Of a stretch of 64,000 nt of DNA, positions 124 through 19,664 are shown in pieces. This DNA comes from Brevibacterium pigmentatum (GTDB taxonomy: Bacteria > Actinomycetota > Actinomycetes > Actinomycetales > Brevibacteriaceae): the NCBI RefSeq assembly GCF_011617465.1, contig NZ_CP050153.1, positions 2,480,001 to 2,544,000 of the forward strand, given 5' to 3'. How positions within the stretch are numbered: the first letter of the stretch is position 1; every line of letters begins with the position of its first letter. The notes beneath the pieces were generated by a model. It made no database searches, was not told where the DNA came from, and saw only the letters and a list, made by a program, of their open reading frames with translations. The position numbers and the translations under genes are program-made.

Positions 124-133
124 GATTTAACTT
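124..133 (+). repeat. Island left terminal inverted repeat
   Basis: GATTTAACTT, reading inward from the left comM junction. It is the exact inverted counterpart of AAGTTAAATC at 24098-24107. Beyond these ten bases the two ends diverge, although both nearby regions contain ACACGTC/GACGTGT-type motifs that could be recombinase binding sites. Confidence 0.8.
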
Positions 134-254
134 ACTCGAAGGTTGTGTGTAGAGCTTTGACCTGGAACAACACGTCGCACACACTTGCACGACAAGCGCA
201 CAGGCGTCTCACCTGAGTAGCACAACTTTAGTTACCCGCCGCTGACAGCCGAAT

Positions 255-551
255 TTACGACTTTCCCAGCGCCTTGCGCATGTTCTCGACGGCCTCAGGT
301 ACTCCCGGCGCGAACGTGATGTCCTGCCCACCCACGCGCCCGGTGAACTCCCGCAACGGCCGCAAACTCGTGATGATCTTCTTCAACGACGCCCCAGTCG
401 CGGCCTGCATAAATCTCGACACGGCCAACGCGGTAGACACGACAGTCAGGTGCGCCTCAGAAGTAGGTATGTGGCGACTTACTGGAGAGCTATGTGGCGG
501 CCCGACAATTGAGAGCAGTAGCTGTGTCAGTATGTTTGGGCATGAAGCCAC
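255..551 (-). pseudogene. Transposase C-terminal remnant (IS1634/IS4-like)
   Basis: The last ~70 residues (E-A-H-L-T-V-V, A-L-A-V-S-R-F-M-Q, S-L-K-K-I-I-T-S-L-R-P-L-R) resemble the conserved C-terminus of IS1634-family DDE transposases. The catalytic region is missing, and the first ~25 residues do not fit the family. It is a decayed IS fragment in the left flank of the island. Family assignment is from motif memory. Confidence 0.55.
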
Positions 552-1755
552 TCGGGCTGAGGTCGGGGACGCGGCGCTTGCCTCAGGCGTTACAGAGACT
601 GAAGCGGGTGGTTGACGAAGGGAGCGCCTTCGACGACGGCGACGGCTGGGTTGACAGCCAGGAAGATCTTGCCGCTCGGCGTGTTCGACTAAGTGGTCAG
701 CCCGTTAGGCATGTCCCAGACGATGCATAATTGCCCAAGCTTCTAGATGAGATTGAGGATTCCTGATATCGAAGTTCGTGTAGTAGGCGGTGCACCAGCC
801 TTGCCAAAAGTCGTGGTCGATATCTTGCCCCCACGTCGACACCCGCGGACATCCGATGTGCTCTATGCTTCGTCCTGAAGCTCGCCGCAAGTAGGGGGCT
901 GCATTTGTGCGGAATCGTGGGCCTGACCGGGCCAAGAGAGACCGGATGTGCGCAAGGGGCACTCCGTAGGCAACCGATTCGGATCCATAATGTGCTCTGT
1001 CTTTGGAATGAGGGGAGCGGCGCGTCCCTTCGTACGAGATACTGAGATAAGTAGTAGCGTCCTAGTGGGCATAGCGTTGGCGAAGCGCAGAGACTCGCGT
1101 CCTATGACAATTATCGGGCGTGCCGTAATTGAGAGTGTAGGTCCGGTCTGGGCTCACCGGACTCGAAGAGAAGTCTGGCAACGTAGTGGGCGAAGTTTCG
1201 AACTCCTAGTGCCGATTCCCGCAGATGCTGGAGTCTGCTGTTAACGGCCCCGATTAGGCCACCTGACGTCCCGGCTGGGTGAAGATCGCGAAAACATCAG
1301 CGGCTGGACTCTATAGAGTCCAGCCGCCTGAGCTGCCCAGCCCTGGTGGCTGCCTCGCTGTCAGGGCGTCGACGACCGGCTGGAGGAGCTTCACACCGTC
1401 TCCGCGGTCGATGGTGTTCTAGGCGCTGACGCTGTCTGGGCGGATGGTGAAGTCCAGGTGCCTTTGAAAGTGCTCAAGCTTCGGTCTGCGAAAAGTTTCG
1501 TGATCCCCTCTTGCCGCCTGGCGGTGATCAGACTGGCAACCGTAGGCGGAGCCCTAGTCCGCGTGTCCGACGTGATTGCGGGCGATCCTGCGGACAGCGG
1601 TGCTACGGACCAGCCGTCTACCGTTCCGTCGGCACCAGTCGTGGACGGTGATTGGGGCAGAACTCGAGGACCTTTGTGCCTGGTGATGTACTGCCACTAA
1701 AGTTGTGGAACTCAGGTCAGATACACGCGCAACGACGCATCAGCGCTTCGCTTCC
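552..1755. other. Gene-free degenerate stretch in island left flank
   Basis: About 1.2 kb with no convincing gene. All open frames are short, lack ribosome binding sites and show no codon bias. On the minus strand around 1370-1450 a short stretch (D-R-G-D-G-V-K-L-L-Q-P-V-V-D-A-L) looks protein-like but is interrupted by stops. I read this as remnants of inserted elements. The only clear structure is the palindrome at 1301-1326. Confidence 0.6.
1301..1326. terminator. Perfect 26-bp palindrome (hairpin)
   Basis: Two 13-nt arms, CGGCTGGACTCTA and its exact complement, with no spacer. It lies in gene-free debris with no T tract on either side. It could be an old IS-associated terminator or an operator. 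Confidence 0.5.
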
Positions 1756-2763
1756 CTATCTAGAGGTTATCTCTACCGAGTGAGTAACGACTTCTGATGG
1801 AAGAAAGCGCACACCGTTTAGTACCTGGGCAACAATCTCGACCGCGCGCGCCCCGAAATCTGCGGCGCGAAGATTCACTGCCACGACGGATTCATTCGCA
1901 TCGGCGGCATATGCGCTGCTAACAAGCGAACCTATCGCGATATCGGTATTTGGATTTCGTCCGGATTTCGTGATCTCAACAAGTGCACGTTGGGCAAATC
2001 CCTGTGGACCAAACACAATTCCACCGATCTGAGGGTCGGTGACGATTCTCCGGACGACGGAATGAATCTCATGGTCACTAGCGGTGATCGGTAACGGGTG
2101 CTCACTCGGCCCCACGTCGAATTCATGACAGTAGTCACGATATCCGTCGCACATGTCTTTTGTCGCTGAAGACTGAAACTTTGCATCGCTGCAGACAAGC
2201 GCAATCCGACCGTGACCGCGTTGATGCAGTAGACCGGCAACCTTCGCCGCCGTTCCACGATGGTCCGCTTGGACCGTTGCATCAACTTGCGACTGCTTCG
2301 GGCCCAAAACCCGCCCAGCAGTCACCACTGGTAGATCCGAGTCGATAAATGCCGCTAGCGCCGGATCATCGCCAATCGGGTCGACGACGATGACCGCGTC
2401 CACCTGGGGTAAGGCCCCGGCAGTCGTGCTCGGATCTCGAGCGATCAGAAGCAGATCGCAGTCGATTTGGGCCGCTGCAGCCGTCGCACCGTGTGCGAAT
2501 TCCATAAAGTAGCCGAAGCTGCGTACCTGCAGGGGGATGTAGAGCCCGATCGCATTCGACCGTCCGCTCCGGAGCCCTCGGGCGATTCGATTTCCCCTAT
2601 ACCCGAGTTCTTTCGCAGCTTGCTGCACTCGATCTCTCGTCGCAGCTGACATCCGGCCGCGACCAGCCAGCGCGTCGGAGACGGTGGTTTTGGAGAGACC
2701 CAGGTGGGTCGCGAGTCCCACTAGCGTCGGGCGCGGCGGTCCGGTTCTATCGCCTCGGGGCAT
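1756..2763 (-). CDS. LacI-family transcriptional regulator
   Basis: 335-aa DNA-binding regulator. Residues 9-60 form the LacI helix-turn-helix plus hinge helix (T-L-V-G-L-A-T-H-L-G-L-S-K-T-T-V-S-D-A-L-type motif, then R-G-L-R-S-G-R-S-N-A-I-G), followed by a periplasmic-binding-protein-like ligand domain ending in V-T-H-S-V-E-I. The frame stays open well upstream, but HTH homology and typical family length favour Met at 2763; Met at 2796 is a near alternative. It is divergent from the symporter/amidohydrolase genes, and CG-centred palindromes lie between them, so it probably controls those genes. The ligand is unknown; an amine or its acetyl derivative would fit the context. Confidence 0.9.
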   Translation of the reverse strand: MPRGDRTGPPRPTLVGLATHLGLSKTTVSDALAGRGRMSAATRDRVQQAAKELGYRGNRIARGLRSGRSNAIGLYIPLQVRSFGYFMEFAHGATAAAAQIDCDLLLIARDPSTTAGALPQVDAVIVVDPIGDDPALAAFIDSDLPVVTAGRVLGPKQSQVDATVQADHRGTAAKVAGLLHQRGHGRIALVCSDAKFQSSATKDMCDGYRDYCHEFDVGPSEHPLPITASDHEIHSVVRRIVTDPQIGGIVFGPQGFAQRALVEITKSGRNPNTDIAIGSLVSSAYAADANESVVAVNLRAADFGARAVEIVAQVLNGVRFLPSEVVTHSVEITSR

Positions 2764-2854
2764 GGAAATGTCGTCGTTGTCTCTCGTGGTGAGCATTAGC
2801 ACCCGCTGGGGAGTAGTCCATGTGATCAACTTACATCGACTTTCAGATGCAACC

Positions 2855-2905
2855 TTGACTTTGGGTGTGATGTAGGTAACGTTTGAGCCATGCCGGAACG
2901 TTCCG
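2855..2905 (+). promoter_or_regulatory. Symporter promoter with candidate LacI operators
   Basis: TTGACT (2855-2860) and TAACGT (2877-2882) with 16-bp spacing make a plausible sigma-70-type promoter. Two AACGTT cores 19 bp apart overlap it: one at 2878-2883 on the -10 box, and one within the perfect palindrome CGGAACGTTCCG at 2894-2905. Central CG palindromes are typical LacI-family operators. Having the second in the 5' leader supports the downstream translation start at 2956. Confidence 0.5.
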
Positions 2906-2955
2906 TCACTGTTGATAAGCGTCGGCAACTCCATGTTTCTCGGAAGGGTCCCTTC

Positions 2956-3177
2956 ATGAACTTCGACATTCGGCCGCCAACCCGCATTGCACGAACCGCC
3001 ATAGTTTGGGTCGTAATCATCGACTTCGCACTCCTCCTGTTTCCACCGCTGCATTGGAGCCTGGCTAGCCTCAATCCAGCCTATGCCCTGATCTCCCTCG
3101 TGCTTTCGAGCGCAATCGTCACCGCATCGTTGCCTCTTATCAGTCACATCAATCGCAGAGCGGAAGGTGAAGCATGA
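2956..3177 (+). CDS. Small two-helix membrane partner of symporter
   Basis: 73-aa protein with two hydrophobic segments (about residues 12-32 and 41-62) and a basic end. GGAAGG eight bases before the ATG at 2956 selects this start over the ATG at 2890, which would place the candidate operator inside the coding sequence. The last four bases overlap the symporter start (ATGA), so the two are translationally coupled. Short two-TM proteins of this kind (DUF485/DUF3311-like) commonly precede sodium:solute symporters. I could not assign the exact family. Its role is probably assembly or stability of the transporter. Confidence 0.75.
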   Translation: MNFDIRPPTRIARTAIVWVVIIDFALLLFPPLHWSLASLNPAYALISLVLSSAIVTASLPLISHINRRAEGEA

Positions 3178-4688
3178 ATATCCTCATCGGCTACGGTGGC
3201 GTCCTGGTCCTGTTCTTGCTCATCGTTTTCGTCCTCGAGCGAAGCAGAAGGGCAAAGGCGACGACTAACTTCAGCGAGTACGCCACCGCTGGGCGCTCGT
3301 TCGGCTCGTTCTATTCCACAATGGCCTTCGTCAACACCTGGCTGCCTGGCACAATCTTCATTTCGTTCGCAGGATTGGCCGCGTCATCCGGTTTGGTCGG
3401 GTACTACTTCGTTCCCTACTCACTCATTGCCGTGCTGCTGATGTTCTTCCTCGCCAAGCCTGTCCACATGTGGGGAAAGAAATTCGATCTGCGGACCCAA
3501 GCCGACCTTCTCGGCTTCCGATATGGGTCCAATTCCGTAAGATTCACCGCCGCAGTAATCGGGATTGTCGCTTCCCTTCCTTGGGTGGTGCTCGGCATGC
3601 AATCGCTGACCTACGTGTTCTCCTTCCTCTCCTTCGGATTGGTTCCCGCAACAGTAGCCGTCTACATAGGCATCGCAGTGATCATCGTCAGGCAGATCTG
3701 GACGGTAAGATTCGGCGCCCGAGGCCTTGTGGTCAGCGACATGGTTCAAGGAATCGTCGCCTATGGAATCGGCACGGTGCTTGCTGTAGGCCTCATCATC
3801 TGGCTGGCGGCCCACGATCACGGCGTCTCGGAGGTAGACCCTTCGTTCTTCTCTCTGCCCGATCCCGGCAGTGACCTCGGTGGCCTCTACTTCTTTTGCA
3901 TCGTCCTCACCGGCGGACTGGGCGCCTGGAGTTGGCCCGACATCTTCATCCGATTGTTCACCTCGAAGAGCACAACGGTCATCAGAAAGTCTGCGGTCCA
4001 AGCGGCTCCGATCATCTTCTTTTTCGGAACAGCAGTCACCATCGCGGCAATTTTGGCCTCGACACTCCCGGGAGTCGCCGAATCCAGCGACCTGGTGTGG
4101 CTAATCGCCGCGGAAAATGGCGGTCCCATCATCTTGACCCTGGCCGGCCTCTGCGTCATCGCAGGAACGATGGGAAATGTCGGCGGCAACCTTCAGGCGC
4201 TGGGCACCCAAACAGCAAACGACATCGTCGGTGTCGTTCGGAGGAAGCGGATCACCTCTGCGTTAGTCGGCAAGATCTCAGTCGCGGTCCTGTGCGCAGT
4301 CTCCGCAATCTTCGCGATCGCCACCGCCGAAGTCTCGAATGGTCTTATCCGTCTGGCACTCCTATCCTACGAAGGCATTGTGCAACTGGCTCCCACTCTG
4401 TTTCTAGGCGTGTTCTGGAAGCGCGGTACCCCAGCAGCTGCAGTGTCCGCAATGGTCACCGGATTCGTCACCGCTTCGATCTTGGCCGCGATTTACCCGA
4501 CTTCGATTCCATGGCTCGAAGGCATCACCCCTGGCATCGCTGGCCTGTTCGTCAATGTGGTCGTCTATCTGGCCGTCTCGTTCATTCGGCCGAACCGCAC
4601 TAGCGAAAACGCCCGAATCGACGGAGTCTTCGCTCATCTCAAATCGGACGCAGGCGCTCCACAACCTGTTCGTGAACGGGAGACCTGA
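3174..4688 (+). CDS. Sodium:solute symporter (SSS family)
   Basis: 504-aa polytopic membrane protein with about 13 hydrophobic helices. It has the SSS pattern: an early variable helix, A-T-A-G-R-S-F-G-S-F near residue 40, and repeated G-A/N-G motifs in the sodium-site helices (A-G-T-M-G-N-V-G-G-N-L-Q near residue 330). It starts inside the 2956 gene and is followed 64 bp later by the amidohydrolase. It likely imports an organic solute with Na+. The genes around it suggest a polyamine, acetylpolyamine or related amine, but specificity cannot be read from sequence. Confidence 0.88.
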   Translation: MNILIGYGGVLVLFLLIVFVLERSRRAKATTNFSEYATAGRSFGSFYSTMAFVNTWLPGTIFISFAGLAASSGLVGYYFVPYSLIAVLLMFFLAKPVHMWGKKFDLRTQADLLGFRYGSNSVRFTAAVIGIVASLPWVVLGMQSLTYVFSFLSFGLVPATVAVYIGIAVIIVRQIWTVRFGARGLVVSDMVQGIVAYGIGTVLAVGLIIWLAAHDHGVSEVDPSFFSLPDPGSDLGGLYFFCIVLTGGLGAWSWPDIFIRLFTSKSTTVIRKSAVQAAPIIFFFGTAVTIAAILASTLPGVAESSDLVWLIAAENGGPIILTLAGLCVIAGTMGNVGGNLQALGTQTANDIVGVVRRKRITSALVGKISVAVLCAVSAIFAIATAEVSNGLIRLALLSYEGIVQLAPTLFLGVFWKRGTPAAAVSAMVTGFVTASILAAIYPTSIPWLEGITPGIAGLFVNVVVYLAVSFIRPNRTSENARIDGVFAHLKSDAGAPQPVRERET

Positions 4689-4752
4689 ACGCTCCAGTAT
4701 GTTCGCCGCAGACTAACGTCCAACGCTCAATCACACCGCCGAAAGGAACACC

Positions 4753-5898
4753 ATGGCAACCACCACTCCAGCTGTTCGAAAGACCGGTTACATCTGGCAC
4801 GAGATCTTCGCCTGGCACGACACAGGAACGCGAGCCGGATTCCCCTACCCCACCGAGTACGCCCAGCCCTACCGCACATTTGAGAACTCAGAGTCCAAAT
4901 CTCGTCTCGCTGGCCTGGTGGAAGTCTCGGGCCTCCTTGACCAACTAGTGCGGATCAAAGCCGAACCCGCATCACAAGAAGCCATACTGGCGATACACGA
5001 GGCGGACTACATCAAGCGAATTAAGAAGGAAAGCGCCACGCTCGGAGGCGACGGCGGAGACGGAACTACTCCGTTCGGCCACGGAAGCTATGATATCGCA
5101 CGACTCGCAGCAGGTGGAACGATTGCCGCTACCGATGCAGTGATGCGAGGGGACGTCGACAACGCCTACGCGCTCGTGCGTCCACCCGGACACCATGCCG
5201 AACGCGGGAATGGCATCGGGTTCTGCCTGCTCGCCAATGTGCCGATTGCGATCGAGCACGCGCGTCGCGAATACGGCGTAGAACGCGTGCTCATCGTCGA
5301 CTATGACGTCCACCACGGCAACGGCGCTCAGTCAATATACTGGGACGACCCCAATACAGTAACTCTTTCAATTCATCAGCAGCGCCTCTTCCCTCCGCAA
5401 GGCGGCGAGCTGGAGGAAACCGGCGGAGATGAGGCGCGTGGCAGCTGCATCAACGTCCCGCTTCCCGCGGGCTGCGGGAATCAAGCCTACCTCGAGGCAA
5501 TTGATCGAGTGGTGGCACCAGCCGCCGCAGCGATGAAGCCCGATCTGATCATGGTCTCGAGTGGTTTCGACCCCGGGGTACTCGATCCGCTCGGCCACAT
5601 GACTGTCACATCACAGGGATTTCACGCCATCGCGACGAGACTTGTCGAGATCGCAGACAGCGTGTGCTCGGGACGGGTCGTGTTTTCTCATGAAGGCGGA
5701 TACTCTCCGGTCCAGGTCCCGTTCTGCGGCCTGGCGGTCCTGCAAGCTCTTTCCGGTGCTCAAACCGATGTCGAAGACCCGTTCAAAATCTATGAGGGGC
5801 TTCCCTCTCACGAAATTCAGCCCTGGCAACGAAGCATAATTGATAAGGCCAACTCCTTGGCTGAACATCTCAGTGGCAGGTGGGGCACTCCGGTCTAG
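4753..5898 (+). CDS. Acetylpolyamine amidohydrolase / class II HDAC-like
   Basis: 381-aa zinc hydrolase of the arginase/deacetylase fold, expected to remove acetyl groups from N-acetylated amines in the cytoplasm. Catalytic features are complete: P-P-G-H-H-A with H147/H148, zinc ligands D185 and H187 (D-Y-D-V-H-H-G-N-G) and D273 (S-G-F-D), and the transition-state Tyr317 (H-E-G-G-Y). A GAAAGGA ribosome site precedes the ATG. The gene lies between the symporter and a copper amine oxidase. That context favours an acetylpolyamine substrate over protein lysines; acetoin-utilisation-type enzymes share the fold. Confidence 0.85.
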   Translation: MATTTPAVRKTGYIWHEIFAWHDTGTRAGFPYPTEYAQPYRTFENSESKSRLAGLVEVSGLLDQLVRIKAEPASQEAILAIHEADYIKRIKKESATLGGDGGDGTTPFGHGSYDIARLAAGGTIAATDAVMRGDVDNAYALVRPPGHHAERGNGIGFCLLANVPIAIEHARREYGVERVLIVDYDVHHGNGAQSIYWDDPNTVTLSIHQQRLFPPQGGELEETGGDEARGSCINVPLPAGCGNQAYLEAIDRVVAPAAAAMKPDLIMVSSGFDPGVLDPLGHMTVTSQGFHAIATRLVEIADSVCSGRVVFSHEGGYSPVQVPFCGLAVLQALSGAQTDVEDPFKIYEGLPSHEIQPWQRSIIDKANSLAEHLSGRWGTPV

Positions 5899-5900
5899 CG

Positions 5901-5943
5901 CCGTGAGCCACACGGTTCACGGCCACATTCGCAACGAATGTGG
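5901..5943 (+). terminator. Two tandem hairpins after the amidohydrolase gene
   Basis: The first hairpin (5901-5922) pairs CCGTGAGCC with GGTTCACGG around ACAC, with one G-U pair. The second (5923-5943) pairs CCACATTC perfectly with GAATGTGG around GCAAC. They abut with no gap, starting 3 bp after the stop codon. There is no T tract. They probably terminate the LacI-controlled unit or protect its 3' end. Confidence 0.55.
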
Positions 5944-5976
5944 GCCGACCTTCCACCCGCCAGACGGCGATCCACA

Positions 5977-6003
5977 TTTAAACATTAACAGTAACTATTA
6001 TTG
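5977..6003 (+). promoter_or_regulatory. Shared control motif upstream of amine oxidase
   Basis: TTTAAACATTAACAGTAAC followed by TATTATTG. It matches 24 of 27 bases at 10307-10333 upstream of the APC permease. It sits ~80 bp before the amine oxidase start, in an AT-rich stretch that differs from its surroundings. It is a candidate binding site for the FadR-type GntR regulator encoded between the two sites. Confidence 0.6.
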
Positions 6004-6080
6004 CTTAAGGCTGTTTGGTGGTTTACGGTAGTACCAACCCCGCGTGACTGCGGCCATGCACAAAGAAGTGAGGAAACACC

Positions 6081-8084
6081 ATGAAAACAGTCCCCGACGC
6101 AACACATACCCACGGGAAGCGCATCAGCACCCCTCTTGAAGTTACCCATCCTCTCGACCCTTTGACCGCGACAGAGATCGATCAGGTGCGCGCAGTCCTC
6201 GAGGAGGCAGGCCACCTGGGCAGGGAGGTGCGCGTAGCGTCATTGTTACCCAAAGACCCCCCGAAAGCACTGGTCGCGCAGTGGCAGGTCGGACAGCCGA
6301 TGGAGCGCCGCGCACTCGTCACGCTTCTCAACCGCAGCAGTGGAGAAGCTCACGAGGTCACCATCAATTTGGCCACCTCCCAGGTCGACCTGATCACCCC
6401 GCTGAAAACCGGCGAAGCCCCCTACGGACAACCGCAAATTCTCGAAGAGGAATATACGGGCATAGACGACATCGTCAAGTCATCTCCCGAATGGCAACAG
6501 GCGATGAAGCGCCGCGGCCTCGAAGACCACATCGACACGTGCTACTGCACGCCATTGGCGCCGGGCTATTTTCCCGGACGCGACGACGAAGTCGGGCATC
6601 GTGTAGTGCGATCGCTGACCTATTTAATTCCGAACCCAGGGGACAACCCCTGGGCACACCCTGTCGAAGGCCTGCTTGCCCTGGTCAATCTGACCGAACA
6701 GCGAGTTGTCAGTGTCGAAGACAGGGGCGATGTTCCGGTTCCAATGAAACACGGCAACTATGGGCTCGACGCTCAAGGTCCCGCACGGACGTCTCTCAAA
6801 CCGATTGAGATCTCCCAGCCGGAGGGGCCCAGCTTCTCTGTGAATGGCAACGAAGTTTCATGGGAGGACTGGAACTTCCGAGTAGGGTTCAACGCCAAGG
6901 AGGGACTTGTTCTCAACCTCGTCAGCTTTGCAGATCAGGGCGAGCAGCGCCCCGTCCTCACTCGAGCCAGCATTCCAGAAATGATCGTTCCCTACGGTGA
7001 CACGCACCATACCCGCTACTGGATCAGCTACTTCGACGCCGGGGAATACCTGCTGGGACAGAACGCGAATTCTCTTGAGCTGGGCTGCGACTGCTTGGGC
7101 GTTATTCACTACTTCGATGCATTTGTCGCCGACGGGAACTGCTCCCCTCAGAAGATTCCGCAGGCCGTCTGCATGCACGAAGAGGACTACGGCGTGCAAT
7201 GGCGCCACACCGACCACCGAGGCAGAAGCGAAGTCCGTCGCAGCCGCCGGCTCGTAGTCAGCTACTTCGCGACCGTAGGCAACTACGACTACGGCTTCTT
7301 CTGGTACTTCTACCTCGACGGTTCGATCCAGTTCGAAGCGAAAGCAACCGGCATCGTGTTCGCAGGCGCGAACTATCCCGGCACCAAGGATCCTCACGGA
7401 ACCGAACTGTCACCAGGAATATTCACCCCAATCCACCAGCACATCTTCAGCGCGCGACTCGATGCCGCCATCGACGGTGAAGACAACACCGTTCATCAGA
7501 TCGATCTGCAACCCATTCCCACGGGAGAGGACAACCCCTTTGGAAATGCGTTCACCTGGAACGAACTCCAACTGACTTCGGAGTCAGAAGCGCAGAAGAA
7601 CGCCAAGAATGAAGTGAACCGGGTGTGGGAGGTTCGCAGTTCCCACAGGACCAACCACGTCGGCAAACCCACTGCCTATTGGCTGCATCCAGAGGGCAAA
7701 GCCACTCTTCTGGCACAGCCGGATTCCACAGTGTTCGCGCGAGGCAACTTCGCAACCAAACACCTGTGGGTCACTCAATACGCAGAAGACGAGCTGTATC
7801 CCGCCGGAGACTATCCGAATCAGCATGAGGGATGGGCTGGCCTGCCGTCCTGGACCAAAGCCGATCGCAGTCTCGATAAAGAAGACATCGTACTCTGGCA
7901 CAATTTCGGCTTCACCCACATTCCTCGCACTGAGGATTGGCCGGTGATGCCTGTTGACTACTCCGGATTCTGGTTCAAACCGCACGGCTTCCTCGATGAA
8001 AATCCAACGATGGACCTTCCCTCGACCGTTGAGTCACGGAGGTCGGACGACTCCGCGGAACAGTCGTGCTGCTCCAACGACTAG
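6081..8084 (+). CDS. Copper-containing primary amine oxidase
   Basis: 667-aa quinoprotein oxidising R-CH2-NH2 to aldehyde, NH3 and H2O2. Tyr402 in N-Y-D-Y is the residue self-processed to topaquinone. D319 in Y-F-D-A-G-E-Y is the likely catalytic base. H452 and H454 (H-Q-H) plus H613 (F-T-H-I) are the copper ligands. The length matches bacterial and actinobacterial members. No signal peptide is visible, so a cytoplasmic location is likely. A GTGAGGAAA ribosome site lies before the ATG. Expected substrates are mono- or polyamines released by the upstream amidohydrolase; tyramine or phenethylamine are alternatives. The C-terminal tail is Cys/Ser-rich. Confidence 0.95.
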   Translation: MKTVPDATHTHGKRISTPLEVTHPLDPLTATEIDQVRAVLEEAGHLGREVRVASLLPKDPPKALVAQWQVGQPMERRALVTLLNRSSGEAHEVTINLATSQVDLITPLKTGEAPYGQPQILEEEYTGIDDIVKSSPEWQQAMKRRGLEDHIDTCYCTPLAPGYFPGRDDEVGHRVVRSLTYLIPNPGDNPWAHPVEGLLALVNLTEQRVVSVEDRGDVPVPMKHGNYGLDAQGPARTSLKPIEISQPEGPSFSVNGNEVSWEDWNFRVGFNAKEGLVLNLVSFADQGEQRPVLTRASIPEMIVPYGDTHHTRYWISYFDAGEYLLGQNANSLELGCDCLGVIHYFDAFVADGNCSPQKIPQAVCMHEEDYGVQWRHTDHRGRSEVRRSRRLVVSYFATVGNYDYGFFWYFYLDGSIQFEAKATGIVFAGANYPGTKDPHGTELSPGIFTPIHQHIFSARLDAAIDGEDNTVHQIDLQPIPTGEDNPFGNAFTWNELQLTSESEAQKNAKNEVNRVWEVRSSHRTNHVGKPTAYWLHPEGKATLLAQPDSTVFARGNFATKHLWVTQYAEDELYPAGDYPNQHEGWAGLPSWTKADRSLDKEDIVLWHNFGFTHIPRTEDWPVMPVDYSGFWFKPHGFLDENPTMDLPSTVESRRSDDSAEQSCCSND

Positions 8085-8136
8085 CACCCGGACCGATTCC
8101 TGGCCGTCGACCATGACTACGCTCCTTGAGGGAACA

Positions 8137-8676
8137 ATGGTGGCGTCATCTGGTGCCTGCCTCGCGGGGGCAGTCACGGCCCGAAATCTGCGAGCGATAG
8201 TTCCGTCTCTAATAATGTTCGTGTCGATGTTCGATACTGTTCTCTGGCACCAGATACCACCGGCAGTGTGGTCAGGTCTGCTTCTCGTTGCTTCCTTTGT
8301 CATCATTTCGGAGCTGCGCGCGGTTCGCATCACGAACCCGATTGCGAAGACTCATCCTGAGGCGACACCACACTCCCCCGACGCTCGCCAGGAGCGTCGC
8401 CGGCTGCTTGTCATGATTCCGACCTACGTCACGATGGCTTGGCTGGTGCTCGTCCATTCTCACGGCGACAGCAATATTCACACTGCCACCGGGCATGCAC
8501 ATCATGCCGGGCCTGGACTTGCACCGATCCTCACGGTTGCGTGGCTGCTTGCAACAATTTCAACCATTCAAGCGATCGCTTCAGCGCGTCAGCACCAGTT
8601 CTGGTCAGCCGTCGAATCGGCAGCGATGGCCGCCATGCTCGCGAGCATGCTCATCCCGTTCCTCGGGGTGTGGTGA
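8137..8676 (+). CDS. His-rich membrane protein, unknown function
   Basis: 179-aa protein (203 if a GTG-independent upstream in-frame ATG at 8113 is used, 187 aa). The 8137 start is preferred because GAGGG lies five bases upstream. It has four or five hydrophobic helices and a central loop with H-S-H-G-D, a second H-T, then G-H-A-H-H-A-G-P-G. Clustered His near helices suggests metal binding. Its place directly after the copper amine oxidase suggests copper supply or handling, which is inference only. I recognise no named family. It is followed 20 bp later by the gntR gene. Confidence 0.65.
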   Translation: MVASSGACLAGAVTARNLRAIVPSLIMFVSMFDTVLWHQIPPAVWSGLLLVASFVIISELRAVRITNPIAKTHPEATPHSPDARQERRRLLVMIPTYVTMAWLVLVHSHGDSNIHTATGHAHHAGPGLAPILTVAWLLATISTIQAIASARQHQFWSAVESAAMAAMLASMLIPFLGVW

Positions 8677-8696
8677 CCACGCAGAACAGGAAAAGA

Positions 8697-9548
8697 ATGA
8701 GCCTCGGTTCGGGACTACGGTCAAACTTCACTGACGCTGGATATGCTGACACCATGGGTGAAGACAACACAGGCGCGCCGAACATGGTCTCTCCCCGATC
8801 TCTCGACATGATGTTGCAGGTCGGGACCAACTTTCCTGACGATTCCATGAGTCTTGCAGAACAAATTATGCATCGCTTCGAAGCCGCACTCAGCATAGGC
8901 ATCCTCAGCCGCGGAGACCGTCTTCCTCCCGAGTCCGATCTGGCCGAACATCTTGGAGTCTCTCCGCTGACCCTCCGCCATGGTTTGCACATGCTGCGCC
9001 AGAGAGGCCTGGTCGCAACCCGGCGCGGACGAGGCGGCGGGAGCTATATCAGCGGCCAGGTCATCGACCAGAACGAGAACACCGAACTGCGGTTGCAGCA
9101 GATCGACACGGACGGGCTTCGCGATCTTTTCGATCTGGCGGCCAGCGCGGGCCGCGCAGCGGCACGACTCGGCGCGATGCGCACGGACGCGAGCGAAGTG
9201 GCCGGAATGCGAGCATGGAACGAACATTTCCTCAAGGAGACAACCAATGCGGGCCTACGGCGGGCAGACAGTCGATTCCACATCGAGCTCGGCGTCCTCG
9301 CGCAGTCGCCGCAGCTGACTTCGCTACTCGTGCGGGTGCAGTCAGAACTCGCCCCGATGACTTGGTGGGAAAAACAGATCGCCGAGCGCAAATCCACCGC
9401 CTACGACGAACACAACAGCATTATTGATGCAATCGCCTCGGGCAATCATGAGGAAGCCGAGTCACTTACCACCAAACACATCGAGAAGGAACAGGTGTAT
9501 GCGATCGAACATCACCTACGCCTCCTGATGACGGAGAAAGAATTGTGA
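8697..9548 (+). CDS. GntR-family regulator, FadR/FCD-type
   Basis: 283-aa transcription factor. A winged helix-turn-helix lies at about residues 50-115 (S-L-A-E-Q-I-M-H-R-F, G-D-R-L-P-P-E-S-D-L-A-E-H-L-G-V-S), followed by an all-helical FCD ligand domain (R-A-D-S-R-F-H, D-E-H-N-S-I-I-D-A-I, E-A-E-S-L-T-T-K-H-I-E). AGGA six bases before ATG 8697 supports this start; ATG 8754 is possible. The stop overlaps the following Cache-protein start (GTGA), so the two are coupled. It probably controls the amine oxidase and permease through the motifs at 5977 and 10307. Confidence 0.88.
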   Translation: MSLGSGLRSNFTDAGYADTMGEDNTGAPNMVSPRSLDMMLQVGTNFPDDSMSLAEQIMHRFEAALSIGILSRGDRLPPESDLAEHLGVSPLTLRHGLHMLRQRGLVATRRGRGGGSYISGQVIDQNENTELRLQQIDTDGLRDLFDLAASAGRAAARLGAMRTDASEVAGMRAWNEHFLKETTNAGLRRADSRFHIELGVLAQSPQLTSLLVRVQSELAPMTWWEKQIAERKSTAYDEHNSIIDAIASGNHEEAESLTTKHIEKEQVYAIEHHLRLLMTEKEL

Positions 9549-10243
9549 GATCAGAGCGGAATCATAAATTTCTCGCCGACACAGCAGACACCATCGCCGA
9601 GCGAGTCGACTCAGTGTTCGCGTCGCTGGAAGCGCTCCGCGACGCTGCGCTACCCATCTTCGATGCGCCTCGGGTCAGACACGAAGATCTTGCGGTGCTC
9701 GAACCGAGTGTCGCTGACATCATTGGGGACCACGATGGCCTTCTCACTGGGGCAGGCGTTGCGGTCTCGCCTGGGGCGCTGTCGAACACCTCGGCATGGA
9801 TGCAATCCTGGCATGTCTCGGCCTCCGGTCTTCGATTCACTCGTCACAGTCTCAATCCGTCGTCCGTTGACTTCTACAACTACACAGAAATGCCTTGGTA
9901 CCAGCAGCCACGAGCGACACGAGAGGCCTATATCTCGGGCCCCTATATGGACTTCGGCGGAACCGACTCACGGATCATCACCGCCGCCCTGCCCGTGGAC
10001 AGCTGGAACGACAGCACAAGCGTGGTGGCTGCGGATCTGTCTCTGCCCAGTTTCGAACGCATCCTGCTGAGCACGATTCACACGTTTGATCCTGAAACCG
10101 CGCTCATCTCCCCCAGCGGCCGAGTCATCGCCACCAATTCCGCCTCCATTGCCGCCGCTGGCAAGACCACGCGAGATCCAAAATCCAGAGTTCGGATTCC
10201 TGCGCTGAGAGTGCAATGCTCGTGGGAACTGTGCTCCTTCTGA
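9545..10243 (+). CDS. Cache-domain small-molecule sensor protein
   Basis: 232 aa starting at a GTG that overlaps the gntR stop. Residues ~85-200 resemble a dCache ligand pocket: Y-N-Y-T-E-M-P-W-Y-Q-Q-P, then Y-I-S-G-P-Y-M-D-F-G-G, then I-I-T-A-A-L-P-V, and later T-A-L-I-S-P-S-G-R-V-I-A-T-N. There is no transmembrane helix, signal peptide or output domain, so it may act in the cytoplasm, perhaps with the coupled GntR protein. The final 30 residues look less conserved; a late frameshift is possible but not shown. Confidence 0.72.
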   Translation: MRSERNHKFLADTADTIAERVDSVFASLEALRDAALPIFDAPRVRHEDLAVLEPSVADIIGDHDGLLTGAGVAVSPGALSNTSAWMQSWHVSASGLRFTRHSLNPSSVDFYNYTEMPWYQQPRATREAYISGPYMDFGGTDSRIITAALPVDSWNDSTSVVAADLSLPSFERILLSTIHTFDPETALISPSGRVIATNSASIAAAGKTTRDPKSRVRIPALRVQCSWELCSF

Positions 10244-10306
10244 CCCACTGACCGCGCAGGCACAACATTGCCACCGAGAATAGTGGTGCGAGAACATCCG
10301 CGTGAG

Positions 10307-10341
10307 TTTAAACATTAATAGTAACGACTATTGAATAGTCG
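10307..10341 (+). promoter_or_regulatory. Shared control motif and 17-bp palindrome before APC permease
   Basis: TTTAAACATTAATAGTAAC then GACTATTG matches the site at 5977 (24 of 27 positions). It runs into the perfect palindrome CGACTATT-G-AATAGTCG at 10325-10341. The permease ATG is 77 bp downstream. A palindrome joined to a shared direct motif suggests an operator plus promoter element of the amine regulon. Confidence 0.6.
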
Positions 10342-10417
10342 TTCGCGCCGCACTATTCTGAACTCACTGAACCATTCGCTCGGCAGTCGCTGCCTCACAA
10401 CACAAGGACGTGTTTCC

Positions 10418-11848
10418 ATGACTGGTCAACGAAACGTCGAACTGGAAAAGACATTGGGCGTAGCGTCAATCGTCCTCTTCGGCCTCGCCTACATGGGTCC
10501 CCTAATCATCATCGGGATGTTCGGGATCATCGCTAACGCCAGCCAAGGCGCCGCGGCAGGGTCCATGTTCATCGCAACCGTGGCCATCCTCTTCACAGCA
10601 CTCAGCTATGCACGTATGGCCCGCCACTACCCGATGTCCGGCTCTGGTTACACCTACGTCCGCAAGACCATCGGCCCGAAATCGGGCTTCATGGTCGGAT
10701 GGTGTCTCCTCCTGGACTATGTTTTCATCCCGCTCGTCATCTGGCTGGTTGGAGCGGAGTACCTCTACGCTCAGTTCCCAGAAATACCTAAGGCCGTCTG
10801 GCTACTCATCTTCGTTGCCGTCACCACAGCGATCAATCTCGTCGGGATCAAAGTGGCCGACCGTGCCAACATGATCGTCATCAGTTTTCAAGTCGTCATC
10901 CTGGCGCTCTACTTCATTCTCTCTCTGACCAGCATCATCAACGACGGCGGCGCCAGTCGGCTGATCGATCCAGAGCCGTTCATCGGTGTCCAGCAGGAGC
11001 TCGGTCCGATTGCTAGCGGTGCCGCCGTCGCAGCGTATGTGTTCCTCGGCTACGACGCCGTCACGACACTTTCCGAAGAGACAAAAGACGCCGCCAAGAA
11101 CATTCCGCGCGGAATCGTGCTCGTAGCACTCGTCGGCGGAGCCATCTTCGTCGTCATGGCATTCCTGATGGCCCTCATCCTCCCTGGAGGCCAGCTAGAG
11201 AATGCTGAAGCGGCCGGATCTCAGATCGCACTGACGATCGGCGGACAAGTCTTCGCAGCATTCTTCCTCGCTGCCCTTGTCGCCCAGCAGTTCAATGCCG
11301 GAATCGCCGCACAGGCAAGTTCGGCCCGGCTCCTGTTCGCTATGGGTCGAGACGGCATCTTCCCACGATCGTTCTTCGGCTACGTCTCCAGAAAGTTCCG
11401 CACGCCCAGCCTCAATATCATTCTCTGCGGCGTCATCGGACTCGGCGCGGTCTTCCTCTCGCTCCAGACTTCCACTTCGTTCATCAACTTCGGAGCTTTC
11501 GTCGGATTCACGATGGTCAATGTCGCGGTAATCGCCTACTACGTCCGCCACCGCGCCGAGAGGCTAAACCGCTTCCTCTACATTGTGCTCCCGGCCATCG
11601 GTGCAATCGTCGACCTCTACCTTCTCGTCAATCTCGACAATCTCGCGAAGCTGGTAGGCGGCTCGTGGCTTCTACTGGGTCTGATCTATCTCGCCGTCCT
11701 CACGCGTGGCTTTACTCGAAAAGCACCCGAACTCGGTGCCAACACCACCGCCGAGTGGCCGTCGCCCGCCGAGTCCAACAGCGGCGAAGAAGAGAAGTCC
11801 ACCAAGGTCAGCCCTGAACCTTCCGCCCCTGCAACAGACGTCAACTGA
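10418..11848 (+). CDS. APC-family amine/amino-acid permease
   Basis: 476-aa membrane protein with 12 hydrophobic helices and the APC signature early on (V-L-F-G-L-A-Y-M-G-P, then S-Y-A-R-M-A-R-H-Y-P-M-S-G-S-G-Y-T-Y). The ATG at 10418 is chosen because AAGGA lies upstream and it matches the family N-terminus; an in-frame TTG at 10331 is inside the regulatory motif. The polar C-terminal tail is Ser/Glu-rich. It resembles PuuP-type putrescine or ethanolamine importers and lies 34 bp before the aldehyde dehydrogenase gene. The substrate is inferred to be an amine. Confidence 0.88.
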   Translation: MTGQRNVELEKTLGVASIVLFGLAYMGPLIIIGMFGIIANASQGAAAGSMFIATVAILFTALSYARMARHYPMSGSGYTYVRKTIGPKSGFMVGWCLLLDYVFIPLVIWLVGAEYLYAQFPEIPKAVWLLIFVAVTTAINLVGIKVADRANMIVISFQVVILALYFILSLTSIINDGGASRLIDPEPFIGVQQELGPIASGAAVAAYVFLGYDAVTTLSEETKDAAKNIPRGIVLVALVGGAIFVVMAFLMALILPGGQLENAEAAGSQIALTIGGQVFAAFFLAALVAQQFNAGIAAQASSARLLFAMGRDGIFPRSFFGYVSRKFRTPSLNIILCGVIGLGAVFLSLQTSTSFINFGAFVGFTMVNVAVIAYYVRHRAERLNRFLYIVLPAIGAIVDLYLLVNLDNLAKLVGGSWLLLGLIYLAVLTRGFTRKAPELGANTTAEWPSPAESNSGEEEKSTKVSPEPSAPATDVN

Positions 11849-11882
11849 CCTCAGAACGAGTTCAATTCGAGAAAGGAAAACA

Positions 11883-13304
11883 ATGAGCAGTTTCGACCGC
11901 TTCTACATCAACGGAGACTGGGTTCCTGCCGGTTCAGCTCACGAGCGCCTTCCGGTGCTCAATCCCACCACGGAGGAGGCAATCGCTGAAGTCGCCCTGG
12001 CCTCCAAAGATGACATCGACCGCGCAGTCGACGCTGCGCAGCGGGCACTGCCAAGCTGGTCGTCAACAGAACCGAAAAAGCGAGCCCAGTATCTGCACGC
12101 GATCGCCGACGCAATTGAGCAGAACGTTGACGGCATCGCCGCAGTCCTGACCGAAGATGTCGGAGTGCCCACCAAGTTTGCTCAAGATGTGCAAGTCGGT
12201 TGGACCATCCAATATTTCAGGGACGCGGCAAATGCTCTCTCAGACATCGAATTCGAATCCGCGTATGGAGATTCGGCCATTGTCAGGCGGGAACCTGTCG
12301 GGGTCGTCGCGGCAATCACTCCCTGGAACTTCCCGCTCATGCAGTCGGCAGCAAAAGTTGCTCCGGCACTGGCCGCCGGATGCACCGTTGTACTCAAACC
12401 ATCCGAAGTAGCGCCTCTCAGCCTATTCTCTTTGGCCGAGATCGCCTCCGAGGTCGGGTTGCCGGCGGGAGTTCTCAACATCGCCACCGGGTATGGGCCC
12501 GAGATTGGAGAGCATCTCGTGTGCCACCCGGGTGTCAACGCCGTGTCATTCACCGGATCAACTCGCGCAGGAACCAGGATCGCCGCACTTGCCGCAGCTG
12601 ATGTGAAACGGGTAACGCTAGAACTCGGAGGCAAATCTGCCGGTGTTGTACTTCCCGGAGCCGACATCGAACAAGCCGCCCGAGCAACGCTCCTCGATTG
12701 TTACCTGAATTCAGGGCAGAAATGTGTTGCCCAGACCCGACTCCTAGTGCCGCGGTCGCAACTCGAAGCAGCCGAATCAACAACGAAGGCAGTGGCGCAG
12801 AAACTCACTGTCGGCGATCCCGCGGACCCTTCGGTCGACGTCGGACCCGTTGTCTCAGCTGCTCAGCTGGCTCGCGTCCGTGACCATATCATTCGAGCAG
12901 AAGAATCCGGTGCACAGCTGATCGTCGGTGGTGCGGACTCGCCAGCCAACCTCGGCCGCGGGTACTTCGTCCGCCCGACCGTCTTCAGCTCGGTAACAAC
13001 CGACATGCCCCTCGCTCAAGAAGAGGTGTTCGGCCCGGTGCTTGCCATACTTCCCTATGACACCGTTGACGAAGCGATCGAAATTGCAAACGACTCCGAG
13101 TACGGACTGGGCGGTGGAGTGTGGGCCAAGACACGCGATGAGGGTATCGCCATCGCCCGAAAGATCCGTACGGGCCAAGTTGCCATCAACGGTGCAATCC
13201 CGACCCCCGACCTCCCGTTTGGAGGATTCAAGAAGTCAGGGTACGGCAGGGAAGGCGGAGCCTACGCAGTTAACGAGTTCTTGGAAATTAAAACCATATA
13301 CTAA
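11883..13304 (+). CDS. NAD(P)-dependent aldehyde dehydrogenase
   Basis: 473-aa ALDH-superfamily enzyme oxidising aldehydes to acids. N149 (T-P-W-N-F), the Rossmann motif F-T-G-S-T-R-A-G (~223-230), general base E247 (L-E-L-G-G-K) and nucleophile C281 (S-G-Q-K-C) are all present. The ATG follows GAAAGGA. With the amine oxidase it would complete conversion of an amine to a carboxylate; 4-aminobutanal or phenylacetaldehyde-type substrates are plausible. It is the last gene of the module and ends just before an IS remnant. Confidence 0.93.
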   Translation: MSSFDRFYINGDWVPAGSAHERLPVLNPTTEEAIAEVALASKDDIDRAVDAAQRALPSWSSTEPKKRAQYLHAIADAIEQNVDGIAAVLTEDVGVPTKFAQDVQVGWTIQYFRDAANALSDIEFESAYGDSAIVRREPVGVVAAITPWNFPLMQSAAKVAPALAAGCTVVLKPSEVAPLSLFSLAEIASEVGLPAGVLNIATGYGPEIGEHLVCHPGVNAVSFTGSTRAGTRIAALAAADVKRVTLELGGKSAGVVLPGADIEQAARATLLDCYLNSGQKCVAQTRLLVPRSQLEAAESTTKAVAQKLTVGDPADPSVDVGPVVSAAQLARVRDHIIRAEESGAQLIVGGADSPANLGRGYFVRPTVFSSVTTDMPLAQEEVFGPVLAILPYDTVDEAIEIANDSEYGLGGGVWAKTRDEGIAIARKIRTGQVAINGAIPTPDLPFGGFKKSGYGREGGAYAVNEFLEIKTIY

Positions 13305-13332
13305 TCAACTCTTCATTGGTCGGAAACGAGAA

Positions 13333-13746
13333 TGTCAAGCCCCGGGTTTCGTAGCGGCTCCTTTTCTTGGTTTCCTAAGCAGCCGCCAGTTCTGTCGTGG
13401 ACTGGTTGATCCATTCGGAATGGACCTCGAACGGTGGTCGGTACCCGATCCCAGAGTGCAGTCGGGTCTGGTTGTACCAAGCCACCCACTTCGACGTCTC
13501 CGCCATCACCTCAATCAACCCCGACCACACCTTCCGGTCGATAAGCTCGGCCTTGTAGACCGAGTTCAGCGCCTCCGCCATTGCGTTGTCATACGAGTCC
13601 CCAGGCGACCCCACAGTTGCCACGACCTCTGACTCCGCCAGGGTCTCGCCACAGCGAATCGACCGGAATTGCACCCCGCGATCCGAGTGATGCGCCAGCC
13701 CGGAGGCGCCCCAATCGTCATCACTGTATCCCATAGCGGTACTCAC
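13333..13746 (-). pseudogene. IS3-family transposase C-terminal remnant
   Basis: ~120 aa of an OrfB-type integrase core: H-H-S-D-R-G-V-Q-F, then G-S-P-G-D-S-Y-D-N-A-M-A-E-A (the catalytic Glu region), then Y-N-Q-T-R-L-H-S-G-I-G-Y. The first DDE Asp and all upstream sequence are absent, so it is inactive. The IS end probably starts near TGTCAAGCCCC at 13333. It is only distantly related to the intact element at 17636. Bases 13747-13862 hold nothing I can name. Confidence 0.85.
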
Positions 13747-13862
13747 GAGTCATCCCCAGCCGGGGGAGGGAGGCGAAGGAACAAACGGTTCGAATCCAAA
13801 GTTGCTGAAACCCCGAAACATCAGCAGATAATCAAATTATCCACTATGTCTCGCAAAGTTGT

Positions 13863-15473
13863 TCATGATTCAGAGGAAATCAAACAGTTATAACCGCCAA
13901 ACACTGACGAACCAACAATCCTCAAATTGATAACAGGACCAAAGACGTGGTCGAAATATACCGTTTTCACAGTATTGGATTCCCAAACAGGAAAGGATAA
14001 GACTGCAGTCGGCATAGTCTGCTGCAATGGATGCTTAAATCTGTGCTGCGGGGAAGACAGTCCGACCCTTTGAATTGATCCGTCCGCGTTCACGGCTACT
14101 GTCTCGCCATGCACTTCAGCACCATGCAACTTAGGACCGTGCCAAGTCAATTCCAGTTGCGTGGACCCTTCTCCCCGTACACCAACCACCGTCACCAACG
14201 GCTCAGGATCACACACCGGGCGAGCCTCAAGAGCAACCCCCAGCTGATCAGATGCCCTACCTTCAACTAAGTGAACTCGAGGATGTAGCGCGGTACCGTC
14301 GGAATCCTGATGCCGTGCATGCTTCCCGATCAGTTCAGGCAGAAAGCGTTGAGAACCTTCTTTTCCAACCGGCTCATACATAAACGGTTCAAAGCTAACG
14401 TCCAGAACATTCATCGTTCGTCTAGAATCGCCAGCGATCCAGTCACGAAGCAAAGCATTGATATGGGAATCGCCGAATGAATACCCGACGACCACGAGGT
14501 GGTTCGACCTGCGCAATGCAACGCGAGCAGCATAGTTCAGCTCAAGAGTCGGCCCATCGGTACCTAGTTTGTCACGGTCTCCGACTACAATCCAGGGCAA
14601 GGACCTCGATTCGTTTTCAAGATCCTGTGATGATACGACGTTCAGCGCTTTCGGCATCGTAGTCAAATACGAACCCGCAACTTGCTCTATCTCACGCCAG
14701 TCCAAAGACCCATGCAGTTTCAACAAATTTAGAACTCGGTCCTCGGCAGGAAAACTCAACTCCTCGCCGGGAGTCCAGGTATCGATACCGCGATTCACCT
14801 TGATCTTATCGAGAGCAGCAGCCTCTACTGTGAGATCGTAATTCAGAGTAATTACGTCAAGCCCACCGGTCTGTGATCGAGCCAGATCGATGATCGGTTC
14901 CAGATACTCAACGTTGCCGTGCTCGTAAAGTATCTTAGCTAGCTCACGCAAAACAAATCGTTCAGCACCCCGAAAAGAATCTCGAAGGTCGGGCTTTAGT
15001 TCCGAAGCAGCGATCTGCGCGATCGAATCACTAATTGACCGATGGGTGGCAATAGAAAACCTATCTAACGCTTCGGCGATTGAAGCCACCAATTGCTTAG
15101 TTTCTCGAAGTTTAAATCGCGATCCCTTGAACTCGTTAAACGCTGTTAACCAATTTCCAACAAACGGCGCAACCTCGTGATCGTCACGTACTTGAAGCAG
15201 ACGCAATGAAGATATAAGGGTCTCAATGTTCACAGCAAGCTGCGGATCGCGTCCGCGTAAACCCTGGTAACCAGCCATGGCGCCATAGACTGCATTTAAG
15301 ACTCTCGTCCACTCGCTAAGTTCCCAAGGGTCGCTCCCCGAGTTCGCCCTTGCCAATATCTGAGAAGCAAGTTGCGAAGTTACGGGTAAACCTGCATCTA
15401 CAGATGCACCTGCTCCGAGCAAAACGGCAACTTTCCCCGAATCATTCGATTCGACGCCAGTCTCTTGCCACAT
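13863..15473 (-). CDS. SIR2-domain protein, probable NAD-hydrolysing defence effector
   Basis: 536 aa. The N-terminal ~340 residues form a SIR2-like NAD-binding fold: L-L-G-A-G-A-S (18-24), T-L-N-Y-D (209-213), L-H-G-S with H254, and V-V-G-Y-S-F-G-D-S-H-I (328-338). The C-terminal ~190 residues match nothing I recognise. SIR2 NADases act in several anti-phage abortive-infection systems (Thoeris ThsA, DSR, SIR2-HerA). No partner such as HerA, TIR or prokaryotic Argonaute is adjacent. The base composition is clearly AT-richer than the core, and the gene sits in a cluster of decayed defence-like genes. The defence role is inferred. Confidence 0.78.
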   Translation of the reverse strand: MWQETGVESNDSGKVAVLLGAGASVDAGLPVTSQLASQILARANSGSDPWELSEWTRVLNAVYGAMAGYQGLRGRDPQLAVNIETLISSLRLLQVRDDHEVAPFVGNWLTAFNEFKGSRFKLRETKQLVASIAEALDRFSIATHRSISDSIAQIAASELKPDLRDSFRGAERFVLRELAKILYEHGNVEYLEPIIDLARSQTGGLDVITLNYDLTVEAAALDKIKVNRGIDTWTPGEELSFPAEDRVLNLLKLHGSLDWREIEQVAGSYLTTMPKALNVVSSQDLENESRSLPWIVVGDRDKLGTDGPTLELNYAARVALRRSNHLVVVGYSFGDSHINALLRDWIAGDSRRTMNVLDVSFEPFMYEPVGKEGSQRFLPELIGKHARHQDSDGTALHPRVHLVEGRASDQLGVALEARPVCDPEPLVTVVGVRGEGSTQLELTWHGPKLHGAEVHGETVAVNADGSIQRVGLSSPQHRFKHPLQQTMPTAVLSFPVWESNTVKTVYFDHVFGPVINLRIVGSSVFGGYNCLISSES

Positions 15474-15616
15474 CGTGATGTCCTAACGCTTAGTAAATCA
15501 ACTCAATACTTCACTGCTCTTCCCGTTTCGAGAATCATCCACTTCTTCGAATACGATAAAGCAAAGCCAGTTCAAGGGCCGACTAGAGACTTCACCCCTG
15601 ACTCCCAAATACCAAC

Positions 15617-16282
15617 TCAACCTATGACGTAGCTCGAGGAGACCTTATAGTCACCGGGCTTTTCACTAAGTTGGCCATCGATTGTTCGCTCCCACCGAAG
15701 CCCATTAGTGTCAGTGAACGTGATCCCAATGCCTATCGGTCCGGCTCGCCATCCCCCTTCTACCCACTCTGAGCTCCCGTCGTCGTTCTGCTCTAGAGAC
15801 TTGACGACCCCATCCTGGTTGGGCAGATTCCAAGACAAATCTATGCTCTTCACCTCGGCACGCTGTGAGTTGATAAATGCACTCATTCCAGAATGACGTT
15901 CGGGGGAACCCATGGGCGGCAACGTTCCGCCGATAATGTCGTTCTGATTATTCGGTGCGATGAAACTAAGCACCGCATTATAAACAGGTTGATTACTGGC
16001 GTTGAACACCCGCACCTCGAACGAATCCAAGACGTCCTTCGTTAGCCACGCCGAAATTTGCGAAGCTTGTTCGCGTCGTTTCTCCCGGCCGCGCTCGGTT
16101 GCTTCAGACTCAAGCGCATCCACTTGATCCTGAGCAGACTTCATCTGCTGGAACGCGTATGTAGCTGCGAAAGCAGCTGCACAAAACGCGAGGAACGTCG
16201 ATACAGCCGAAATCCAATCTGGTACAGACCCATATTCCCATGCCGATGTATCGACGTTCAAAAACGCGTAATGAAAGATCAT
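15617..16282 (-). CDS. Membrane-anchored coiled-coil protein, unknown function
   Basis: 221 aa. One hydrophobic helix at about residues 24-45 (W-I-S-A-V-S-T-F-L-A-F-C-A-A-A-F-A-A) is followed by a charged helical stretch rich in Gln/Glu/Arg (50-75) and a C-terminal β-rich domain (~80-221). The start lies 6 bp past the stop of the helicase remnant, so they probably share a transcript; the SIR2 gene follows after ~140 bp. Small membrane proteins of this layout occur in phage-defence loci, but I do not recognise the family. Confidence 0.6.
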   Translation of the reverse strand: MIFHYAFLNVDTSAWEYGSVPDWISAVSTFLAFCAAAFAATYAFQQMKSAQDQVDALESEATERGREKRREQASQISAWLTKDVLDSFEVRVFNASNQPVYNAVLSFIAPNNQNDIIGGTLPPMGSPERHSGMSAFINSQRAEVKSIDLSWNLPNQDGVVKSLEQNDDGSSEWVEGGWRAGPIGIGITFTDTNGLRWERTIDGQLSEKPGDYKVSSSYVIG

Positions 16283-16288
16283 CCAATA

Positions 16289-18897: not shown

Positions 18898-19088
18898 CAC
18901 CCCGATTGTCACCTCTCTCTGCACCAGTCCCAAGTTGGGACATATCTGGTTCATTCGGTCCAAGGTTCACTCATACAGACCACCTAGGTTCTAGCCGAAT
19001 CACAGCCCAAGACCTTGTACTTTCTAGTAGAATTCGACTAGGAACTCGCAGTCCTGTCCCGTCTCTAAGAGGATGGAAGTGCCTCAAG

Positions 19089-19562: not shown

Positions 19563-19664
19563 TGGATCAGCGCTACTAATGTAGCTACGTTTAAGCTCCC
19601 GCCTCATGGCGCGTTCTCAGCGCGCCACGAGCCTCATTGCGACGATCGCAGAGATTAGATTCGG

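Follow-up and report, generated by a model that had tools for sequence, protein, structure and literature searches.

Neighbouring candidate units for amide hydrolysis and amine oxidation on an island in comM of Brevibacterium pigmentatum

Genes for two transporters, an HDAC-fold amidohydrolase, a copper amine oxidase, an aldehyde dehydrogenase and two regulators lie together near the start of a 64,000-nucleotide stretch of DNA from Brevibacterium pigmentatum (the window, bases 2,480,001-2,544,000 of a 3.91-Mb single-contig genome), and we asked whether they form one pathway, what it might degrade, and on what kind of DNA it is carried. A first-pass annotation had described a complete acetylated-amine module on a mobile island, with import, deacetylation by an acetylpolyamine amidohydrolase-like enzyme, and oxidation of the amine and then the aldehyde. 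All the genes it named are intact open reading frames at the place given (LacI, SSS symporter, Hist_deacetyl-fold, CuAO, GntR/FCD, APC, and ALDH), but its parts list omitted a 73-aa protein, a His-rich membrane protein, and a dCache protein, and "complete" was too strong a word for what is an inference.

The DNA that carries these genes has a GC content of 51-59% from window position ~1 to ~24,000, compared to ~65% outside. In this genome, comM is split at ~126 and 24105, as judged from the junctions with intact comM of congeners. The gene is uninterrupted in the 5 of 5 congeners that were aligned, where it runs across window 126 and 24,105 without a gap of its own; because it aligns gaplessly over both break points in these five, we placed an integrated island of ~23.98 kb at window ~127-24,105. 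A comM match also reached the break point in 30 of 30 other congeners searched, in nearly all of them in a longer open frame than here. The C-terminal domain of comM lies on the same strand, leftwards from window ~126 and just beyond the window's left edge. At the right end of the island, overlapping genes encode two tyrosine recombinases and a DUF6262 protein. The island and its borders comprise the following features.

127..24105, no strand: island, delimited by GC content and junctions, with the inverted sequence GATTTAACTT / AAGTTAAATC at its ends
19665..20255, minus strand: DUF6262 protein, third gene of the recombinase trio
20230..22833, minus strand: large tyrosine recombinase
22826..23965, minus strand: tyrosine recombinase
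about 24,075-25,127 (junction 24105), minus strand: interrupted N-terminal part of comM/yifB, from gene comparison and junctions

The layout of this trio resembles that of Tn554 (tnpA-tnpB-tnpC). Tn554-like elements share with the island three overlapping genes, two of them for tyrosine recombinases, at one element end within a chromosomal gene; the difference is the insertion site, here comM. The insert contains recombinases and interrupts a gene that relatives have in one piece, and this anatomy confirms the predicted island as a recombinase-borne, putatively mobile one.

The left end of the island (window 127-1750) contains no assignable open reading frame of at least 120 aa and appears decayed. 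A SIR2-like protein (13863-15473, minus strand) matches PADLOC models of the SIR2 partner in short Argonaute systems (5.9e-38); its gene has no recognisable Argonaute neighbour, and it may be the remnant of a defence system. At 16289-17161 (minus strand), a truncated gene encodes the N-terminal 290 aa of a large restriction enzyme (Mrr_cat_2 and ResIII domains); the PADLOC models that it matches are ~1600 aa long. An IS3-family transposase fragment (13375-13746, minus strand) directly follows the aldehyde dehydrogenase gene, and a fuller IS3 transposase open reading frame lies at 17830-18897 (plus strand); these two IS3 sequences could have helped assemble the cargo.

The catabolic gene set is better read as two neighbouring, separately controlled units, A and B, each of a known kind. 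Unit A consists of a LacI regulator, a small protein, a Na+-solute symporter, and the HDAC-fold amidohydrolase (HDAH).

1756..2763, minus strand: LacI-family regulator of 335 aa, starting at 2763 or a little upstream of it
2894..2905, no strand: palindrome CGGAACGTTCCG, a putative LacI operator that the other unit A loci also have between LacI and the symporter operon
2956..3176, plus strand: small hydrophobic protein, 73 aa, probable symporter companion; its stop overlaps the symporter start
3174..4688, plus strand: sodium:solute symporter, PanF/MctP-like, SSF
4753..5898, plus strand: HDAC-fold amidohydrolase, cluster-1b HDAH-like
5899..5943, plus strand: pair of strong tandem hairpins behind the HDAH stop codon (z -4.8, a fold that no shuffle equals), putative terminator separating unit A from unit B

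The LacI start was placed nearer 2763 than 3147 because the longer open reading frame lies antisense over the small gene. Unit A recurs in congeners and in at least four other genera. With LacI, symporter, and HDAH in the same order and without unit B, it is found on a Rhodococcus qingshengii plasmid, in three congeners (L029-L031), in a sister genus within the family (L026), in two Leucobacter (L125 and L149), in Mycobacterium sp. AT1 (L126, where LacI falls beyond the contig end), and in one further genome (G1051, L256). All these loci have the operator core GGAACGTTCC, mostly as CCGGAACGTTCCGG, in the interval that separates LacI from the operon. Homologues of the 73-aa protein occupy the same position in L003, L026, and L031, and tblastn detected this gene in only some unit A loci. 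An HDAH gene adjoining a sodium symporter gene was also seen in Burkholderia vietnamiensis and Neobacillus. Since unit A lacks unit B in most genomes, it does not need unit B, and import followed by hydrolysis is a self-standing unit. An IS6 element and an amidohydrolase gene lie near unit A on the Rhodococcus plasmid. We found no DNA-level copy of the module on plasmids.

Unit B consists of a copper amine oxidase (CuAO), a membrane protein, a GntR regulator and a stand-alone dCache protein, plus an APC permease and an aldehyde dehydrogenase (ALDH).

5977..5995, plus strand: unit B regulatory element TTTAAACATTAACAGTAAC, 19 bp, upstream of CuAO
6081..8084, plus strand: copper (topaquinone) primary-amine oxidase, AGAO-like
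8113..8676, plus strand: His-rich membrane protein with a weak, sub-threshold DUF5134 match
8697..9548, plus strand: GntR/FCD regulator, start chosen by AGGAAAAGA before ATG
9545..10243, plus strand: stand-alone soluble dCache protein, putative amine sensor; its GTG start overlaps the GntR stop
10307..10325, plus strand: second copy of the unit B element TTTAAACATTAATAGTAAC, upstream of APC
10418..11848, plus strand: APC-superfamily permease
11883..13304, plus strand: NAD(P)-dependent aldehyde dehydrogenase that reaches the cut-off of none of the specific NCBIfam models shown

The CuAO scores above the cut-offs of NF008559 (bacterial primary-amine oxidase) and PF01179, and the earlier topaquinone assignment is borne out by its TPQ motif NYDY, its HQH and C-terminal copper histidines, and its catalytic Asp. 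Its best match is AGAO, the phenylethylamine oxidase of Arthrobacter globiformis, with which it shares most channel residues in addition to this active site: counted along the alignment, AGAO Leu137, Trp168, Tyr296, Asp298, Tyr302, and Gly380 are conserved, as is the TPQ motif, with Tyr in place of Phe105. The AGAO channel residues as kept here suit aromatic monoamines. The two enzymes differ in that the island CuAO is less than half identical overall to the solved AGAO by alignment, and in their genomic partners. Two further copper amine oxidases, 44-46% identical to that of the island, are encoded outside it at genome positions 288279-290198 and 729817-731685. The membrane protein encoded directly after the CuAO has a His-rich stretch, HSHGDSNIHTATGHAHHAG, and a copper-handling role for it is possible; tblastn of the fetched loci found no homologue beside other CuAOs. 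The best NCBIfam match of the ALDH is aminobutyraldehyde dehydrogenase (NF010000), at 443 bits compared to a cut-off of 615, and its nearest solved structures were uninformative about substrate.

A GntR regulator with a stand-alone dCache protein is a described actinobacterial arrangement for intracellular amine sensing (PMC10104139). The island pair resembles the published GntR/dCache_1AM two-gene operon in combining an FCD-type GntR with a soluble dCache protein in overlapping genes; it differs in that the amine-binding motif is not fully matched and in sitting inside a CuAO operon. When compared to the PctD motif, the equivalents of F188/Y189, M215/S217, and D235 are W, Y, I, T, and D, and R103, D133, and W155 were not assignable. 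The island protein thus keeps several ligand-site positions and departs from the family consensus at others, and amine binding, as judged from these residues, is likely. Among the fetched loci of dCache proteins, a GntR gene was adjacent in 11 of 11 and an ALDH gene was nearby in 8; a flavin amine oxidase gene adjoins the dCache gene in one.

The two units also carry different candidate regulatory elements. The 19-mer TTTAAACATTAAYAGTAAC has exactly two copies in the 3.9-Mb genome, one before CuAO and one before APC. No further genome copy with up to two mismatches was found, and shuffled windows are expected to contain none even when three mismatches are allowed. When the full upstream regions of CuAO and APC were aligned locally, the result was only moderately unusual, being reached by 4 of 1000 shuffles; the case for a shared element is built on the exact 19-mer and on how often it occurs in the genome. 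The 19-mer was not found in related CuAO or GntR-dCache loci. A perfect inverted repeat with 10-bp arms, AACGACTATTGAATAGTCGTT (10323-10343), overlaps the end of the second copy and could be a GntR operator or a terminator. Unit A carries the LacI palindrome alone and not the 19-bp element, and the palindrome is absent before CuAO; its two-mismatch matches are at chance level. Sigma-70-like promoters and U-tailed terminators showed no excess over shuffles. The tandem hairpins at 5899-5943 would end transcription between HDAH and CuAO. The simplest reading of these elements is that units A and B are two transcription units under different control, and the proposal of one co-regulated module is not supported, given the two operator sets and the intervening hairpins.

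HDAH lies directly beside a CuAO in four other, unrelated lineages (L150, L158, L223, and L268), so the idea that these enzymes can belong together is supported. In 2 of 80 HDAH loci from genome contigs, the CuAO adjoins HDAH on the same strand. One is Grimontia indica (L158, 11257-18534), with the order LuxR-HDAH-CuAO-amidase-ABC transporter; it resembles the island in that CuAO directly follows HDAH on the same strand, and it differs in its regulator and transporter, its extra amidase, and a CuAO only 30% identical. Its ABC transporter is of the branched-chain type, and the locus is a second candidate N-acyl-amine pathway with another transporter. A gammaproteobacterial MAG has CuAO and then HDAH on the same strand, and two sampled actinobacterial genomes have M20 hydrolase-DUF1028-CuAO-HDAH (G624) and CuAO-HDAH with a divergent upstream gene (G956). 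These two adjacent pairs in the sampled actinobacterial genomes compare to ~0.012 expected by chance, a hand estimate from the HDAH and CuAO counts at ~1 gene per kb; because it ignores the general clustering of catabolic genes, it is evidence of association but not of a pathway. None of the four other pairs has the island's transporter and regulator; they therefore need not act on the same compound, and the pairing probably arose several times. The pairing, which had been called unusual, recurs in unrelated bacteria and is not unique; however, we found no description of an HDAH-CuAO pathway in the open-access literature searched, most subscription papers lying outside it. As to the same gene set in other genomes, unit A and the HDAH-CuAO adjacency recur, but the whole of unit B was not found elsewhere, and CuAOs of 55-66% identity within the order stand in other contexts.

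We consider it somewhat more likely than not (roughly 0.55) that the 24-kb comM island carries two adjacent catabolic units and that the amine released by unit A probably feeds unit B. Under this explanation, the LacI regulator would act at GGAACGTTCC, the Na+ symporter would import a small amide, and the cluster-1b HDAC-like amidohydrolase would split it. GntR and the cytoplasmic dCache amine sensor would control unit B through the two copies of the 19-bp element. The APC permease would take up a primary monoamine, probably an aromatic one, the AGAO-like CuAO would convert amine to aldehyde, NH3, and H2O2, and ALDH would convert the aldehyde to the acid. The substrates, the passage of the amine from unit A to unit B, and what the regulators, elements, and hairpins do are inferred parts of this explanation. 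The recurrence of HDAH-CuAO adjacency in four other lineages makes deacylation followed by amine oxidation plausible, so the reaction order first proposed remains reasonable, but not the acetylpolyamine class of its enzyme.

It is possible, though we think it rather unlikely, that two unrelated cassettes sit side by side as cargo and share no metabolite, with unit A degrading an amide whose products enter general metabolism and unit B a free biogenic amine. The separate regulatory elements and the hairpins fit such an arrangement, as does the occurrence of unit A alone in congeners and other genera; in the congeners and sister genus that have unit A, the copper amine oxidases are located elsewhere in the genome. 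The repeated HDAH-CuAO adjacency, including the two actinobacterial pairs, argues against it.

The remaining alternatives concern the hydrolase. Its metal ligands, which had been noted before, and its catalytic residues are present (PPGHHA, DVHHGNG, GFDPG, and EGGY), and it looks catalytically intact. Its best solved relatives (~300-321 bits) are FB188 HDAH, propanil hydrolase, dimethoate hydrolase, and other HDAH-type deacetylases; the best 15 are all of HDAH, PrpH, DmhA, or HdaH type, and no acetylpolyamine amidohydrolase (ApaH) is among the best 60. The alignments cover query residues 8-369, near full length, and include the N-terminal L1-loop region. Alphaproteobacterial HDAC-family comparators, whose class is not established, were left out of this comparison. 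This full-length similarity, with intact metal ligands and the catalytic His and Tyr, places the enzyme with the cluster-1b class II deacylases. It has the same metal site, catalytic Tyr, and similar length as the described members (FB188 HDAH, PA3774-type HDAH, KpHdaH, and the propanil and dimethoate hydrolases; PMC11532494), and it differs from them in lying in an operon with a symporter and LacI, beside a copper amine oxidase. At the polyamine gatekeeper position it has Leu (DPLG), which is invariant across the unit A homologues, and neither the bacterial PIS nor the HDAC10 PEG motif, as defined in PMC11532494, is present beside the catalytic Asp. Bacterial polyamine deacetylases are reported only from cluster 4, and the cluster-1b enzymes tested in that study did not deacetylate acetylpolyamines (PMC11532494). 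The cluster-1b relatives and the Leu gatekeeper argue against assigning this protein to the cluster 4 acetylpolyamine amidohydrolases (MrApaH/PA1409).

We regard as improbable the view that HDAH is a xenobiotic arylamidase or pesticide amidohydrolase of the propanil or dimethoate hydrolase type and the island a pollutant-degradation element. Those hydrolases are among its closest solved relatives but are no closer than FB188 HDAH, and the IS6 element and amidohydrolase near unit A on the Rhodococcus plasmid would suit this view, but the retention of a dedicated symporter and regulator in different genera points to a common natural substrate. Least probable is a single module for acetylated polyamines such as N-acetylputrescine, to which the HDAC fold with its intact metal site and the sub-cut-off aminobutyraldehyde dehydrogenase match of the ALDH would lend themselves, but against which stand the cluster-1b kinship and Leu gatekeeper of HDAH and the aromatic-monoamine channel of the AGAO-like CuAO.

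An N-acyl aromatic amine is a likelier substrate than an acetylpolyamine. More tentatively, and with the odds against it, a cluster-1b HDAC-like enzyme beside a CuAO might be the mark of an undescribed pathway, assembled more than once, for N-acylated aromatic amines such as N-acetyltyramine or N-acetylphenethylamine. For most class II HDAC-like enzymes of bacteria no physiological substrate is known, and such a pathway, if real, would assign a class of natural substrates to a large branch of bacterial HDACs that are now orphans. The conserved transporter-hydrolase operon, its clear operator, and the repeated pairing with an amine oxidase lead to concrete, testable substrate hypotheses, and the island illustrates the way in which integrative elements of actinobacteria carry and stack catabolic units.
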